Shown here in pieces: positions 7,889 to 46,804 of a DNA stretch of 54,090 bases. Within the stretch, counting starts at the first letter, position 1; each line of letters opens with the position of its first letter. The stretch spans positions 20,648-74,737 of the forward strand of contig MHBU01000018.1 of NCBI GenBank assembly GCA_001803395.1. The letters are read 5' to 3'. The stretch is from Methylotenera sp. RIFCSPLOWO2_02_FULL_45_14. Its GTDB lineage: Bacteria > Pseudomonadota > Gammaproteobacteria > Burkholderiales > Methylophilaceae. Both the position numbers and the translations under genes were made by a program. The notes under the pieces were generated by a model. The model was not told the origin of the DNA. It saw only the letters and a program-made list of their open reading frames with translations, and searched no databases.

Positions 7889-9704
<1,816 letters not shown>

Positions 9705-40737: not shown

Positions 40738-41862
40738 ATGAACAATCTCGCCCCCTACGCCGCCAATCCTGCATTATCCATAGGCCGCCAATTTAACGAG
40801 CCGCCATCCTCTACCCGCAACGCCTTCCAACGCGATCGTGACCGCATTATCCACTCCACCGCCTTTCGCCGCCTGGAATACAAAACGCAAGTATTTGTAA
40901 ACCACGAAGGTGACTTATTTCGCACCCGCTTAACGCACAGCCTGGAAGTCGCCCAAATGGCGCGTGGCATCGCGCGTACACTCAACCTGCATGAAGATCT
41001 CACCGAAGCCATCGCATTAGCGCATGATCTGGGTCACACCCCATTTGGCCATGCCGGGCAAGACGCACTCAATGCATGTATGCGTGATTTTGGCGGCTTT
41101 GAACACAACCTGCAATCATTACGCGTGGTAGAGCAGCTAGAACAGCGCTACGCCGAGTTTGACGGCTTAAACTTAACCTTTGAAGTGCGTGAAGGCATCC
41201 TCAAACATTGCTCCATTAAAAATGCCAAACAGTTGGGCGACGTAGGCCAGCGCTTTATAGATAAAACCAGCCCCAGTTTAGAAGCGCAACTCACCAACTA
41301 CGCTGATGAAATCGCCTATAACAACCATGACATTGATGATGGCCTGCGCTCAGGCTTAATCACCATAGAACAATTATCCAAAGTCGAACTGTTTGCGCAA
41401 AATTTGGCAGAGGTAAAAACTAAATACCCAAAATTAGAGCAGAAGCGTCTAATACACGAAACCGTACGCCGCATGATCAACACCCTGGTGGTGGATTTAT
41501 GCACGCAAAGCGCACACAACATTGCACAACACCAACCGCAAAGCATTGCCGATATTCGCCAGCTACCGCCATTGGTAAATTTTAGTGATGAAATTGCCGC
41601 GCAAAATCAAAAACTCAAACAATTTTTACGCAAAAATCTATACCACCATTATAAAGTCAACCGCATGAGCGCAAAAGCCACGCGCATCGTGCGCGAGCTG
41701 TTTGCCGTGTTTTTTGAAAATACAGGCTTATTGCCCAACGAATTTCAAACCTACGCTGAAATTGACAAACCTCGCGCAGTGGCAGATTACATTGCCGGTA
41801 TGACCGACCGCTATGCCATCCGCGAGCATCGTAAATTGTTTACGGTAGAAGAGTATTTGTAG
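40738..41862 (+). CDS. dgt: dGTP triphosphohydrolase-like protein (HD domain)
   Basis: Hydrolyses dNTPs to nucleosides and triphosphate, controlling nucleotide pools. It has 374 residues, the shorter type common in betaproteobacteria and alphaproteobacteria. The HD metal residues are in [36 protein letters not shown] and [15 protein letters not shown]. The C-terminus is intact. The TAG stop (41860-41862) is part of a REP-like GTAG head, as in aroB. Confidence 0.92.
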
Positions 41863-41990
41863 GGGCGACGACCTAGTTTAGCAACACTTGCCAGCAAGCT
41901 GGCTTTAGTGTTGATTATCAGTTTTATCTGGCGCGAAAAATGGTGCTATGAATTCCATCACTGCAATTGGCACGTGATCTTGCCTCCTAC
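41859..41990. repeat. REP-like pair with a second hairpin element (H1) in its left unit
   Basis: A plus-orientation REP head and half-stem GTAGGGGCGACGACCTAG (41859-41876) is cut by hairpin element H1. H1 spans about 41877-41929, with outer stem CAACACT/AGTGTTG and inner stem GCCAGC/GCTGGC around AA. The tail GGCGCGAAAAATGG then resembles the tail CGTCGCGAAATGG of the intact REP at 40718-40730. A degraded minus-orientation REP (GCACGTGATCTTGC then CTCCTAC, 41971-41990) closes the pair. Confidence 0.75.
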
Positions 41991-42095
41991 ATACGACTTT
42001 TCAAGTGCTTTAGCGCTTAGCAAATTAGCAATACTTGCCTGCGAAGCGGGCTTAGTAGTGTTTATCAGTTTCTCCTGATCGGAGTGCCCGTGGTA
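41990..42095. repeat. P element interrupted by hairpin element H2
   Basis: 41990-42020 is identical over 31 bases to 42096-42126, and 42080-42096 is identical over 17 bases to 42132-42148. Between them, 58 bases (42021-42078) replace the AAAA (42127-42130) of the intact copy. The inserted part is H2: outer stem CAATACT/AGTAGTG (one mismatch), inner stem GCCTGC/GCGGGC with a GAA loop, then TTATCAGTTT. Confidence 0.9.
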
Positions 42096-42147
42096 CATAC
42101 GACTTTTCAAGTGCTTTAGCGCTTAGAAAATCGGAGTGCCCGTGGTA
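42096..42147. repeat. Intact P element
   Basis: 52-base palindromic repeat. AAGTGCT/AGCGCTT pair around TT, flanked by TTTTC/GAAAA-type and CGA/TCG pairing, and ending GGAGTGCCCGTGGTA. A third copy at 43834-43884 has the stem AATGGCT/AGCCATT, a different sequence with pairing kept. Confidence 0.88.
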
Positions 42148-42213
42148 CAAAAATCCTTATGTTGCAAATTTACAACAAATGTAAATAATTGTGACAAAAA
42201 TGCTAACTTTAGG

Positions 42214-42242
42214 TTGTGTCAGCCAAATCACTTGGGTATATT
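42214..42242 (+). promoter_or_regulatory. Candidate sigma70 promoter for the porin
   Basis: TTGTGT (42214-42219), a 17-base spacer and TATATT (42237-42242). The -35 box is poor but the -10 box and spacing are good. It would give a leader of about 170 bases. Confidence 0.4.
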
Positions 42243-42418
42243 AACCACACCTTCTTGATGAAGCTACTTGTAAGCTAGTCTTGCAAAGTAGTGAAAGTCG
42301 AGAGAGTTTGCAAACTTTCTCTTGCGTTTATTGCTACAGCCGGCTTGCCGGCACTGGCAAAAAATAAAAGAGGTAAAACTTAAGTAACACAAACGCAATA
42401 TATTTTATGGAGATTTAT

Positions 42419-43636
42419 ATGAAAACAACAATTAAATTAGCAGTTGCTTCAGCTTTAATCGCTGCAGCTTCAAGCGCTAACGCTGGTATTATTATTCCAG
42501 CTGGCGATTGGACAGTAGACATTAACGGTAACGTGAATGCTTATTTCATCCACAACCGTTCATCAGACAACAACACTGTTTTAGGCGGTTTGGCAAATAC
42601 TGAATCTGGTAATGCAGACAATAATAGCTCATCATCAAGCATCAACACTGGGTTATTGCCTTCATGGTTAGGTGTTTCTGGTAAAACACGTCAAAACGAC
42701 TTGGACGTTGGTTTCACAATCAGCTTCCAACCAGGTGCATCAGGTAAAACATCATTATCTGCTGGCGCTGCCAGTAATTCTGAATTCCGTCAAGCATCTA
42801 TCACATTCGGTGACAAATCATGGGGTTCTATCAAAATCGGTAAAGACTTAGGTGTTTTCGGTTCTGATGCTATTCTAAGTGACATGACATTGTTAGGCGT
42901 TGGCTCACAAGGTCTTGTTGGTACAGCGGGTGGTACTACAACTACACTAGGTCGTATCGGTACTGGTTACCTGTATGCTGACTTCAATGGTCAAATCAAC
43001 TACACATCACCAAATTGGAATGGTTTCAGCTTTGTTGCTGGTATCGACCAACCATTAAATACATTGAACCTAGCTGGTGGTGCAAGCACTGCTTCAACAG
43101 GTGCTCAAAAAACGCCAGGTTTCGTGGGTAATGTTTCTTACTCATGGGCTGGTGATGTAGCTGGTAAAGTTTGGGCTGAAGCTAAAACACAAAACGTTGA
43201 GTATGGTGGCACTGTTGGTAAAGAACGTGCAACTGCTTTTGGTATCGGTGCTAAAGTTGATGTTGCTGGTTTTGGTTTAGTAGGTTACTACTATGACGCT
43301 GATGGTGTTGGTACAACAGCATTCTTGATGGACGGTGTTGCTGCTAACGGCAAATCACGTGATTCAGACGGTGGTTACGTACAAGCTACTTACACAATCC
43401 CAGGTGTTGGTACTAAATTGGGCGTTAGCTGGGGTATCAGCAAGCTTGATGAAGCATCAGGTGAAGTTGCTACAACTTTAGTTAAAGAAAATGAAATGTG
43501 GACAGTTGGTGCTTACCATCCACTTACAAAACACTTGAACTTGGTTGCTGAGTACTCACAAGTTACTGCTGAAAACCATGCAGGTGCTGAAAACGAATCA
43601 GACATTGCTTCAGTAGGCGCAATCTTATTCTTCTAG
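42419..43636 (+). CDS. Gram-negative outer-membrane porin
   Basis: 405 residues from the ATG at 42419 (MKTTIKLAVASALIAAASSANA), with GGAG upstream. A typical signal peptide is cleaved after ANA, leaving a beta-barrel rich in Gly, Ser, Thr and aromatic residues and ending in Phe-Phe, the usual outer-membrane insertion signal. TRQNDLDVGFTISFQ and SIKIGKDLGVFGSDAILSDM match general porins. Codons are unusually uniform (GGT, GCT, TCA), as expected for a highly expressed gene. The substrate is unknown. Confidence 0.9.
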   Translation: MKTTIKLAVASALIAAASSANAGIIIPAGDWTVDINGNVNAYFIHNRSSDNNTVLGGLANTESGNADNNSSSSSINTGLLPSWLGVSGKTRQNDLDVGFTISFQPGASGKTSLSAGAASNSEFRQASITFGDKSWGSIKIGKDLGVFGSDAILSDMTLLGVGSQGLVGTAGGTTTTLGRIGTGYLYADFNGQINYTSPNWNGFSFVAGIDQPLNTLNLAGGASTASTGAQKTPGFVGNVSYSWAGDVAGKVWAEAKTQNVEYGGTVGKERATAFGIGAKVDVAGFGLVGYYYDADGVGTTAFLMDGVAANGKSRDSDGGYVQATYTIPGVGTKLGVSWGISKLDEASGEVATTLVKENEMWTVGAYHPLTKHLNLVAEYSQVTAENHAGAENESDIASVGAILFF

Positions 43637-43642
43637 GATAAC

Positions 43643-43658
43643 GCAGGGTTAACCCTGC
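43643..43658. other. Perfect palindrome just after the porin stop
   Basis: GCAGGGTTAACCCTGC is a perfect 16-base palindrome seven bases after the stop. It may protect the 3' end of the mRNA or assist termination. Confidence 0.7.
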
Positions 43659-43681
43659 TTTAGAATTGAAGTTTAAATAAA

Positions 43682-43707
43682 AACGGCATTTTCGGATGCC
43701 GTTTTTT
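43682..43707 (+). terminator. Rho-independent terminator of the porin
   Basis: AACGGCAT/ATGCCGTT stem around TTTCGG followed by a T-run. Confidence 0.92.
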
Positions 43708-43741
43708 TATTTTAAGCAAGCGTAGCCTCGATGCAATGAAT

Positions 43742-43817
43742 CAGAAAAACTGATAAGCACTACTCAGAATAAACTGATAAGTACTACTAAACCCGCTTCG
43801 CAGGCAAGTATTACTAA
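43742..43817. repeat. Hairpin element H3 (minus orientation) with partial duplication
   Basis: A complete copy with ACTGATAAGTACTACTAA, apex CCCGC-TTC-GCAGG (43792-43804) and CAAGTATTACTAA. It is preceded by a repeat of its left end: CAGAAAAACTGATAAGCAC begins at 43742 and CAGAATAAACTGATAAGTAC at 43765. Confidence 0.85.
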
Positions 43818-43833
43818 TAAACCAGCAAGCTGG

Positions 43834-43884
43834 CATACGACTTTTCAATGGCTTTAGCCATTAGAAAATCGGAGTGCCTGTGGT
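43834..43884. repeat. P element copy 3
   Basis: Matches the P element at 42096-42147 except in the hairpin stem, which is AATGGCT/AGCCATT here, and two changes near the end. Both sides of the stem differ together, keeping seven base pairs. Confidence 0.88.
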
Positions 43885-44026
43885 GTAAGTATTGCTAAAT
43901 GCAATCGAGGGATAACGTAACGGATCCCCCTCGATTACGCTGCGCTTTCACTCAGAATAATGAGCTTTAGCTCATATATTCTGTGGGGAAGACCTTCACG
44001 GTCTCATCAAGGCTACAAATTCCTAC

Positions 44027-44052
44027 AACGGCAACTTCGGTTGCCGTTTTTT
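44027..44052 (+). terminator. Orphan rho-independent terminator
   Basis: AACGGCAAC/GTTGCCGTT stem with a TTCG tetraloop and a T-run, very strong. The porin already has its own terminator 320 bases upstream, so this one may end a short unrecognised transcript from the hairpin mosaic or act as a back-up. Confidence 0.88.
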
Positions 44053-44167
44053 ATAGCTTAAAATTTATGAGTCACTTAGCGGGAATGAGATGGGGTCAGC
44101 TCAGTCTGATTCCACTTTACACATATTTGAGTATGCGTGAAGGTTACGTTCGCTACAGTTTCATTAT

Positions 44168-45565
44168 TTATTCGTCTATCCCTAATTCCTGAATTTTTCT
44201 GGTTAGCGTGTTGCGCCCCATACCTAGTTGAGTGGCAGCTTCAATGCGGCGGCCGTGGGTATGCGCTAAGGCTTTTTCGATTAAGATGCGTTCAAATATC
44301 TGTGTGCGGGTTTCCAGTACGTTTTGTTCACCGCGATTCAATGCATCACTTACTTCAGCGGCAAGGGCTTCTTGCCATGTAGTGGTTGCGCTGGTTTTGA
44401 TGTTGTCTTCTTTTAGTTCTGGAGGTAGATCGGCGATGTCGATGTTTTGACCTGGTGCCATCACCGTTAGCCAGTGGCATACGTTTTCTAGTTGGCGTAC
44501 ATTGCCGCTCCAGTTAACGGCGCTTAGGTATTTAAGTGCGGCTACCGAGGGTTGTTTGGCTTCTACGCCGAGCTCGGTGGCGCTGTGTTGTAGAAAATGT
44601 TTTATCAGTAATGGAATATCTTCACGGCGCTCACGCAGTGCCGGCAGTCGCAGCCTAATGACGTTCAGGCGGTGAAATAAGTCTTCACGAAATAATCCGG
44701 TTTTAACGCGTTCTTCTAAATCTTGGTGGGTGGCGGCAATAATGCGTACATTAACTTTAATCGGTTGGTGACCACCTACGCGGTAAAATTGGCCGTCACT
44801 GAGTACGCGCAGCAGCCGTGTTTGCAGGTCGGCTGGCATGTCGCCGATTTCATCTAAAAACAATGTGCCGGTGTCCGCTTGTTCAAAGCGCCCGCGGCGT
44901 GAGGCTGCGGCACCCGTAAAGGCGCCACGCTCATGGCCAAATAGTTCTGATTCGAGTAAGTCTTTGGGGATAGCCGCAGTGTTAATGGCAATAAAAGGTT
45001 TGTCTGCACGTGGGCTATGGCGGTGCAGGGCGCGCGCTACCAGTTCTTTACCGCTGCCAGATTCACCGTTGAGCAGTACGGTGGCATGGGAGCGGCTTAA
45101 ACGCCCAATGGCTCTAAACACCTCTTGCATTGAGGGTGCTTGGCCGATGATTTCAGGCGTTTCTTCTGTGCTGATATTGTTTGCAGTTTCAGAGGCTTGC
45201 CTAGTGCTTTCATCGACTGCGCGTTTGATAATATCAATGGCTTGATCAACGTCAAATGGTTTTGCCAGGTATTCAAATGCGCCACCTTGAAACGCTGCCA
45301 CTGCGCTTTCAAGGTCTGAATATGCGGTCATGATGATGACGGGAATATCGGGGTATTGCCGCTTGATTTCGCTTAAAAAATCTAAACCAGAGCCGTTGGG
45401 CATGCGAATGTCGCTGACCACGACTTGCGGTTGTTCGCGCTCTAGTGCGTTTAGCGCTTCAGCCACAGATGAGAAGGTTTTAAATTCTAAATCTGTGCGC
45501 GCAAGGGCTTTTTCAAACACCCAGCGGATAGATTTGTCGTCGTCGATGATCCAGATTGGTTTCAT
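44168..45565 (-). CDS. glnG: Nitrogen regulation response regulator NtrC
   Basis: Sigma54-dependent activator of nitrogen-starvation genes. It has 465 residues from the ATG at 45565 (MKPIWIIDDDKSIRWVFEKA); an upstream ATG at 45613 would read through repeat DNA and is rejected. The receiver has the phosphorylated Asp in VVVSDIRMPNGSG. The AAA+ domain is intact, with GESGSGKELVARAL, GAFTGAAASRRGRF and TLFLDEIGDMP. The C-terminal Fis-type helix-turn-helix is GRRIEAATQLGMGRNTLTRK. Together with rpoN and the glnA promoter it forms a complete regulatory set in this window. Confidence 0.96.
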   Translation of the reverse strand: MKPIWIIDDDKSIRWVFEKALARTDLEFKTFSSVAEALNALEREQPQVVVSDIRMPNGSGLDFLSEIKRQYPDIPVIIMTAYSDLESAVAAFQGGAFEYLAKPFDVDQAIDIIKRAVDESTRQASETANNISTEETPEIIGQAPSMQEVFRAIGRLSRSHATVLLNGESGSGKELVARALHRHSPRADKPFIAINTAAIPKDLLESELFGHERGAFTGAAASRRGRFEQADTGTLFLDEIGDMPADLQTRLLRVLSDGQFYRVGGHQPIKVNVRIIAATHQDLEERVKTGLFREDLFHRLNVIRLRLPALRERREDIPLLIKHFLQHSATELGVEAKQPSVAALKYLSAVNWSGNVRQLENVCHWLTVMAPGQNIDIADLPPELKEDNIKTSATTTWQEALAAEVSDALNRGEQNVLETRTQIFERILIEKALAHTHGRRIEAATQLGMGRNTLTRKIQELGIDE

Positions 45566-45601
45566 GTGGTTCTCAAAATAATATTTAATATGTGCATAGA
45601 T

Positions 45602-45713
45602 GTAAGAGCGCAATCAGAACAAACTGATAAGCACTACTAAGCCAGTAAACTGGCAAGTATTGCTAATTTATTGCGCGAATGGTTTTAGTTATCGCGAATA
45701 AATTCGCTCTTAC
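45602..45713. repeat. Nested repeat: REP-like pair with H4 in the loop of one unit
   Basis: Left unit: GTAAGAGCGCAAT (45602-45614) pairs with ATTGCGC (45670-45676) through a perfect 7-bp stem. Its loop of 55 bases is a complete H element in minus orientation, apex GCCAGT-AA-ACTGGC (45641-45654). Right unit, minus orientation (45694-45713): stem GCGAAT/ATTCGC, then CTCTTAC. The complement of positions 45710-45712 (TAA) is the ntrB stop codon. Confidence 0.88.
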
Positions 45714-46804
45714 ATCGTAATCGCAACAGGTTTAACCGCTGTGGTTTCTATGGGTAATAAAATCGTAAAGCACGTATTGCCTGGTTCACTATTACATTCA
45801 ATCATGCCGTGATGCTGCGTAATAAAAGTTTGCGCTAAGGTTAAACCTAAGCCTGAGCCACCCTCAGAACCTGATACTAAGGGGTAAAAAATGCGGTCGC
45901 GAATGTCGGCTGGGATGCCAGGTCCGTTATCAATAATTTCTAACTTAATGGCGACACGGTAACGCTTTCTTGCCAGTGTGACTTGCCGTTCAGCACGTGT
46001 TCTAAAGGTGATCTGGCTGGCTGGCGTTTTATGCGCTTGCATGGCTTGTACGGCATTGCGCGCAATGTTCAAAACGGCCTGAATCAGTTTTTCGCGGTCA
46101 CCGATCAGTTCGGGAAGACTTAAATCATAATCACGTTTGATGAGTATTGATTGAGGGGACTCTGCAAGCAACAGGCTTCTTACGCGCTCTAATACCTCAT
46201 GGATATTGGTCGGTTGGTACTTTGGCACGCGATGCGGGATAAGCAGTCTATCCATCAGCATTTGCAGTCTGTCGGCCTCTTTAATAATCACTTGCGTATA
46301 TTCACGCAGGCTGGGTGACGGTAGCTCGTGCTCAAGCAGTTGCGCGGCACCGCGCAAACCACCAAGCGGATTGCGGATTTCATGCGCTAAATTTCGTAAT
46401 AGCTCGGCATTGGCTTGTTGTTGAATTAGCATGCGTTCTTCACGCGCGATACGCAGTTGCGCATCCATCGGCTGAAATTCTAAAATCAAACTGGCGGCAG
46501 GGGATTCAATGGGGGTGACGGTGCAGGTGACAGCAAAAGAATGATGTCGATGGGTGCTAATGGTAAATTCATGCTCCCGAAACGGGCTTTGCTGTTGAAT
46601 GGCGTTGTTGATAGCGAGCATGAGAATGCCGCAGTCTGGAAACACCTCGCTCATTTTCAGCCCAATGACTTGATTAGCGCTAAAGGCAAAAATAATTTCA
46701 GCGCCTGGGTTCATATAGACCACGCGCTGATGATCATCAAGCAAGATAATCGCGGTAGCTAAATGCTCTAGTCCCGCAAAGTGGTCAGGCGTTGATTGCA
46801 CCAT
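45710..46804 (-). CDS. glnL: Nitrogen regulation sensor kinase NtrB
   Basis: Soluble histidine kinase/phosphatase that controls NtrC in response to PII proteins. It has 364 residues. A PAS domain (about 10-120) is followed by the H box RNLAHEIRNPLGGLRGAAQL, an N box IARNAVQAM and G boxes DNGPGIPADIRD and GGSGLGLTLAQTF. The start ATG has a poor ribosome binding site and lies inside an inverted repeat. The stop codon is contributed by a REP-like head; the repeats separate it from ntrC by about 145 bases. Confidence 0.95.
   Translation of the reverse strand: MVQSTPDHFAGLEHLATAIILLDDHQRVVYMNPGAEIIFAFSANQVIGLKMSEVFPDCGILMLAINNAIQQQSPFREHEFTISTHRHHSFAVTCTVTPIESPAASLILEFQPMDAQLRIAREERMLIQQQANAELLRNLAHEIRNPLGGLRGAAQLLEHELPSPSLREYTQVIIKEADRLQMLMDRLLIPHRVPKYQPTNIHEVLERVRSLLLAESPQSILIKRDYDLSLPELIGDREKLIQAVLNIARNAVQAMQAHKTPASQITFRTRAERQVTLARKRYRVAIKLEIIDNGPGIPADIRDRIFYPLVSGSEGGSGLGLTLAQTFITQHHGMIECNSEPGNTCFTILLPIETTAVKPVAITM

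Follow-up and report, generated by a model that had tools for sequence, protein, structure and literature searches.

A small hairpin element of Methylotenera that lies inside REPs, other short repeats and copies of itself

The window analysed here, a stretch of 54,090 nucleotides from Methylotenera sp. RIFCSPLOWO2_02_FULL_45_14 (contig MHBU01000018.1, positions 20,648 to 74,737), carries several copies of H, a gene-less element of about 53 bases that begins with TTAG, ends with CTGA or CTGG and lies mostly inside other small repeats, among them repetitive extragenic palindromes (REPs). Judged by comparison of its copies and sites, H has fixed ends, a two-hairpin fold, a preference for small repeats and a capacity to enter itself and to form tandem arrays, and it inserts cleanly after A or T at sites that are seen empty elsewhere. 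There is about an even chance that H is a non-autonomous, REP-style miniature insertion element of about 53 bases, moved in trans by a Y1 transposase of the REP-associated tyrosine transposase (RAYT) type and in part carried by REPs; the Y1 route is one that we infer.

Copies of H were sought with two covariance models, one built from four copies (R1) and a broader one (R2); such a scan had been proposed in an earlier note on this DNA. The genome to which the window belongs (2.1 Mb in 35 contigs; hereafter the home genome) holds 17 full copies by R1, scoring 84.8 to 50.9 bits, and the next match, at only 21.3 bits, is an H interrupted by another small element, Q. R2 finds H in 32 of 52 genomes sampled from the genus, with up to 33 copies in one genome, and, among 150 drawn from the order, in the home genome only. 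Of 60 genomes sampled from the family 5 have H (the home genome included); the named records that carry it are mostly metagenome-assembled genomes of Methylotenera. The matches listed yielded 142 hits, of which four were dropped by length (<40 or ≥70 bases), and the remaining 138 form 121 blocks, 110 of them unique; most of the 24 copies of one genome, G070, lie outside this set (G and L numbers denote genomes and loci). TTAG starts 102 of the 110 blocks and CTGA or CTGG finishes 103. Spacer-free head-to-tail arrays of 2 to 4 copies occur at L140:586-796, L090, L103, L144, L139, L166 and L171. Rfam has no match for H in the window at the gathering cut-off or at five H-bearing loci with E up to 0.1, and the listings of the literature searched, with most subscription papers outside its reach, show no description of H or of Methylotenera repeats.

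The fold comprises a long imperfect hairpin, in which a lower stem (TTAGCAATACT/AGTAGTGCTTA) leads through an inner bulge to an apical stem (GCCAGC/GCTGGC), followed by a small TCAG/CTGA hairpin (TCAG-T5-CTGA). Across 118 distinct copies 91.8% of cells are paired, and two-sided changes are present in 14 of 20 pairs. The covariation score, from an alignment that was fitted to the structure and is hence biased toward it, is 0.265, compared with 0.119 when shuffled (0 of 500 shuffles as high) and at most 0.073 with slid partners. Stem pairing thus exceeds chance and covariation is strong, which backs the apex pairing read in the earlier note from four copies, all of whose positions are real.

H does not lie mostly outside palindromes, an outcome the earlier note had allowed for: by flank patterns written after the flanks had been inspected, 16 of 17 copies in the home genome (the exception is a site beside rpmI) and 70 of 110 genus blocks are inside another repeat. 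A stricter count, which accepts only H itself and target families also seen uninterrupted and so omits the CGTC, GCGTCAT and TTTCGTG families (without a clear uninterrupted copy in the fetched DNA), still places 14 of 17 and 57 of 110 there. The targets, in blocks, are REP1 (10), REP1b (4), REP2 (10), REP6 (1), an element P (14), Q (4), H itself (8), a CGTC-type palindrome (4), a GCGTCAT element (5), a CTGAGC element (5) and a TTTCGTG element (4), together 69, or 70 with a REP2 case at L139 that falls outside the pattern. Another 19 blocks represent three orthologous sites (7 at a presumed serine tRNA gene, 6 in the rpmI region and 6 at a third site), and 21 are at other sites, including L097, which by eye lies within another GTAG palindrome. 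Uninterrupted copies in the fetched DNA number 17 for REP1, 6 for REP1b, 14 for REP2, 10 for P, 6 for Q and 4 for REP6; the CTGAGC element has one true uninterrupted copy (L174), its other three matches being H itself.

In the home genome the sites were also compared by sequence, with 20 bases from each side joined and 108 kb of that genome as reference. At a cut-off of at least 24 identities an uninterrupted copy elsewhere is matched by 12 of the 17 sites, compared with 83 of 1500 noncoding controls; the count is 11 of 17 (p ~3e-10) without L026, a self match via a tandem copy, and relaxing the cut-off to its lowest, 16 identities, raises the matching noncoding controls to 174 of 1500. The base before H (−1) is A or T in 109 of 110 blocks (p ~1e-23) and in 53 of 54 clusters (4e-11), and the base after it (+1) is T in 80 blocks and C in 19; beyond these two positions no further shared target sequence was found in the 110 blocks.

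Empty sites, which the earlier note had suggested looking for, exist in both orthologous and paralogous form. The home genome (L204) holds an empty REP1, GTAGGAGCGCAATTTATTGCGCGA, that is filled by H in two relatives (L202, L203): the locus reads GTAGGCGCGCAATTTA, H, TTACGCGAC in G094 and GTAGGCGCGCAATTT, then a nest of H copies, then TTACGCGAC in G093. Likewise, a REP2 upstream of a RAYT gene beside a pilin gene is empty in the home genome (L011) and H-filled in G087 (L113), and a site with one H at L150 has two tandem copies at L154, the second of which holds a third. Because empty and filled pairs match at the junctions, insertion of H is precise and free of duplication; the joined flanks equal the intact repeat, with no target site duplication of the kind that marks miniature inverted-repeat transposable elements, and this mode of insertion is that of the IS200/IS605 family.

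H has also entered H. The 8 such blocks represent six contexts and about one place, between GGCTTA and GTA or close variants, and the inner copy mostly belongs to a TTAGTA subtype (window position 43764, L016, L017, L154, L121, L137); L129 repeats the context of the window, L167 is irregular, and in L121 and L137 the outer copy is degenerate. These cases look like separate insertions, because the outer arms differ yet pair (CAATACT/AGTATTG, CTGTACT/AGTACAG, CAGTACT/AGTACTG) and the outer copies match un-nested sisters of the same context (L017/L043, L016/L028, L154/L150). For the other two elements, nesting was judged by visual inspection of the listed sequences. Q, which has two hairpins, runs from TCAC to GGCT or GGYCT, measures 57 bases in the window and is found inside REP2, REP3, P, H and its own copies; its sites include the apex loop of P (L140, L145, L153), its own apex (L140), REP1b at the point used by H (L209) and, in H, a point about two bases from that of H-in-H insertion (L026, where a REP1 holds an H that holds a Q that holds another Q). 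P lies twice inside H, between ACTT and GCCAGC. H and Q thus share spots, both entering REP1b between CGT and CGCGA and both entering H near the junction of GGCTTA and GT. In G084 a RAYT gene has on either side a repeat whose loop contains Q (L081, ~1240-1330 and ~1790-1890).

The part of the window concerned holds genes that we take, from our own reading of the open reading frames, to be dgt-, porin-, ntrC- and ntrB-like, with H copies between them and H4 next to where the ntrC-like gene begins. Its features, read from sequence except where covariance model scores are given, are as follows.

41859..41936, plus strand: REP1b-like host repeat interrupted by H1 (GTAGGGGCGACGACCTAGT / H1 / CGCGA); the arrangement recurs in L035, L117 and L165.
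41878..41931, plus strand: H1, TTAG...CTGG (53.9 bits with R1, 65.4 with R2).
41990..42098, plus strand: P element split by H2 (...GCGCTTAGCAAA / H2 / TCGGAGTGCCCGTGGTAC).
42025..42078, plus strand: H2, TTAG...CTGA (83.0 bits with R1).
42096..42148, plus strand: intact P, the paralogous empty site for H2, whose joined flanks match the uninterrupted copy at 38 of 40 bases.
43722..43910, plus strand: REP2 host (GTAGCCTCGATGCAATGAA ... ATGCAATCGAGG) with an outer H in its loop; ten more REP2 hosts have H at the same position.
43741..43898, minus strand: outer H of the H3 nest (TTAGCAATACTT / P / CCAGCTTGCTGGTTTA / inner H / GTAGTGCTTATCAGTTTTTCTGA).
43764..43817, minus strand: inner H of the H3 nest, TTAGTA subtype (81.4 bits with R1).
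43834..43886, plus strand: P within the 5' arm of the outer H (on the minus strand ACTT / P / GCCAGC, one base ambiguous); the second case is L134.
43929..44016, minus strand: second REP2 host, carrying Q.
43948..44004, plus strand: Q, 57 bases, TCAC...GGTCT, two hairpins; an identical sequence is listed from L015.
45602..45676, plus strand: REP1 host (GTAAGAGCGCAA / H4 / TTTATTGCGCGAA), the left half of an inverted REP pair (other half at ~45695-45715); the inverted arms were found.
45614..45666, minus strand: H4, TTAG...CTGA (67.3 bits with R1, 79.4 with R2).

H1 does lie inside a REP, as the earlier note had it, although a degenerate one of the form GTAGGGGCGACGACC..CGCGA. H2 is in a P element next to an intact P, also as described there, but it sits after the AAAA that it was said to replace: the intact P reads ...GCTTAGAAAATCGGAG... 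and the filled one ...GCTTAGCAAA/H/TCGGAG..., with one A-to-C difference. Similarly, H4 is inside a REP, but rather than filling its loop exactly it lies at one loop end, between GCGCAA and TTTATTGCGC of a GTAAGAGCG REP; most relatives shown at this ntrC-ntrB locus are without a REP carrying H, and the site says little. What had been taken as a single H3 is two copies, an outer H in a REP2 loop that is split by P and by the inner H, and the Q in the second REP2 is a fifth nested element beyond those noted earlier. The corresponding dgt-porin gap of a relative contains a RAYT gene with H-carrying P elements on either side (L112:1098-1469).

The idea that H targets hairpin DNA holds in so far as H lands in small repeats; enrichment at unpaired tips is weak at most. 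Junctions fall in the loops of REP1, REP2 and the CGTC palindrome and in the stems of REP1b and REP6, and they are less stacked than their surroundings in 5 of 12 target families. Joined flanks fold with at least 6 pairs across the junction in 37.6% of 109 blocks and in 36.9% of 2200 controls. With controls drawn from REP-rich neighbourhoods, tight stems, a test blind to long loops and bulges, are found at 3 of 54 site clusters for at least 6 pairs (3.65% of 39,981 controls), at 3 of 54 for at least 7 (1.46%) and at 2 of 54 for at least 10 (0.24%); there is no excess at 6 pairs and above that a weak one, which consists of three cases.

In the proposed mechanism a Y1 (HUH) transposase of the RAYT kind would act in trans, excising H as folded single-stranded DNA and inserting it elsewhere; these RAYTs would be ones that serve GTAG REPs in many genomes of the genus, and an H once inside a REP would also be carried along when the REP is copied. 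Y1 elements make no target duplication and have strand-asymmetric hairpins, and H fits both features. The home genome encodes three Y1 proteins, all matching the NCBIfam REP-associated tyrosine transposase model (one barely, at 80.2 bits with a cut-off of 80), and two of the three genes are flanked by their own GTAG REPs. Among the 52 genus genomes, several of them incomplete, 24 have both H and Y1, 8 H only, 6 Y1 only and 14 neither (p=0.003; Spearman 0.50, statistics that ignore descent); all 8 genomes with at least 5 copies of H have Y1, and the 8 Y1-free genomes with H carry 1-3 copies. H also lies inside a REP beside a RAYT gene at L113, L114 and L233. TnpA-REP, as described in the accessible part of one report, acts on folded single strands, with stem irregularities and tag being of importance; both are present in H in another form (PMC8266576).

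Several observations, besides the limits just given, weigh against movement by RAYTs. The presence of RAYTs in H genomes, which the earlier note had proposed checking, is confirmed, but none has H as its own terminal repeat in 54 Y1 stretches, some overlapping, that cover part of the Y1 genes of the genus; no cognate RAYT flanked by the repeat, as known for REPs, was thus seen for H. In the 6 of these stretches (5 distinct) where H occurs, a REP or P always surrounds it, in one case at a distance of 1.3 kb. One candidate for H as a RAYT terminal repeat, in contig C118 of G094, was rejected: REP1 adjoins the gene and H is inside P. The four bases before H are unconserved, only −1 being tightly constrained, unlike the target tetranucleotide 5' of IS200/IS605 elements. 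G070 has 24 copies of H, many low-scoring and maybe an old, dying population, yet a single incomplete Y1 match, whereas Y1 matches number 6 in G095 and 8 in G099, with 1 and 2 copies of H, respectively. Finally, nearest-neighbour copies share a host family in 40.6 of 69 cases, compared with 5.6 when shuffled; composites may therefore be copied as units, which may account for part of the spread of H and of its association with repeats.

This last pattern also favours a reading in which H is a passenger, a few old insertions in REP1, REP1b, REP2, P and others having been multiplied as the RAYTs of the hosts copied them. All ten REP2-class and all four REP1b copies have the same position and orientation, and the CGTC palindrome and the GCGTCAT element (9 blocks) are never seen uninterrupted in the fetched DNA, as a passenger would have it; against it, REP1 holds H in both orientations, the inner copies of H-in-H nests are mostly of one subtype in outer copies with varied arms and contexts and matched un-nested sisters, and H occurs twice in a Mu-like phage contig. 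We consider the passenger reading rather doubtful. A mosaic made by template switching at hairpins during replication, without any element, had been offered in the earlier note and could draw on the several junctions at palindrome loops or discontinuities and on complex nests such as L026; it is highly improbable, because the ends of H are fixed in more than 100 of the 110 blocks, and junctions are exact relative to empty sites and stems covary.

Two further routes concern the means of transfer. Spread through an RNA intermediate has reportedly been proposed for cyanobacterial small dispersed repeats; an RNA copy of H would fold alike, and the compensatory changes would fit RNA or single-stranded DNA equally. 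Nothing specific speaks against this route, no search for a link to a reverse transcriptase having been made, but we think it unlikely. A site-specific recombinase, for example of the IS110 type, or another enzyme could also be the mover: IS110 elements target REPs, according to the consulted parts of two papers (PMC1525189, PMC11208160), and subtypes of H go with target families. Matched and shuffled pairs of H and target score alike, however, with no guide-like complementarity, and movement by such an enzyme seems improbable. Beyond the RAYT mover itself, we propose tentatively, as a possibility and no stronger, that H, Q and P, folded elements of 53-57 bases unrelated to one another, use the same integration spots through common machinery that would recognise a recipient hairpin and paste folded single strands into it; with nests up to four deep, the elements would make up a guild of REP/RAYT hyperparasites.

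Known systems resemble H in part. The Nostoc elements SDR1 and SDR4, reportedly described by Elhai in 2008, are said to be tiny, to show compensatory changes and to nest in themselves and in other repeats; H likewise nests in its own copies and shows compensatory changes, but the cyanobacterial repeats are said to measure 21-27 bases, and the size of about 53 bases and occurrence in Methylotenera kin would exclude H from them. Like GTAG and CGTC REPs and REPINs with their RAYTs, as presented in the available portions of three papers, H is a short imperfect palindrome with many dispersed intergenic copies, a bulged stem, a four-base tag and RAYT-bearing genomes (PMC3733652, PMC8266576, PMC3116915). 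It differs in its tag (TTAG in 102 of 110 blocks, not GTAG or CGTC), in its two hairpins and in the lack of a RAYT seen with H as its own repeat, and its hosts include GTAG REPs of at least five sequence classes (REP1, REP1b, REP2, REP6 and one adjoining a RAYT gene at L233). Mitochondrial double-hairpin elements and GC clusters, so far as the sections consulted go, are also short mobile hairpins with selected stems that merge and shuffle, but they are organellar and have putative AG or ACT target duplications, of which H shows none (PMC4478555, PMC2800124). REPs within palindromes and insertion sequences within REPs are already known: the former are recorded in A. variabilis, T. roseum and H. 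neapolitanus (PMC3733652, section 7), and the latter enter at fixed places, sometimes the symmetry axis (PMC1525189). As they appear in the latter source, these are full elements with transposases, whereas H is gene-less.

Three settings of H lie apart from the REPs. It occupies an orthologous place, with variable arms, beside a gene that we take from its coded peptide to be rpmI in several species (L021:1501 in the home genome, L054, L160, L033, L110, L170, L053:580-633), where it could be old or useful to its gene. In seven genomes it lies ~2-5 bases upstream of a tRNA gene (L032, L036, L096, L120, L098, L100, L163), confirmed by Rfam at L032 and presumably of the serine type throughout; one of the seven belongs to another genus of the same family (1 of the 60 sampled). 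The phage contig carries H at L252:7105-7157 and 9533-9584, with PHROGs matches to tail sheath, transposase and DNA transposition proteins, and is mobile DNA that could take H from cell to cell.

It is still not clear by what route REP-like sequences spread, and few of their insertions can be traced. From the nests, the orthologous empty and filled pairs and the clear ends of H, the order of insertions and their exact junctions can be read, and a direct test becomes possible of whether RAYTs insert folded single strands into other REPs. Small repeats in a bacterial genome can serve as the main sites at which other small repeats land, and H has the look of a minute mobile parasite of other small mobile repeats, itself included.

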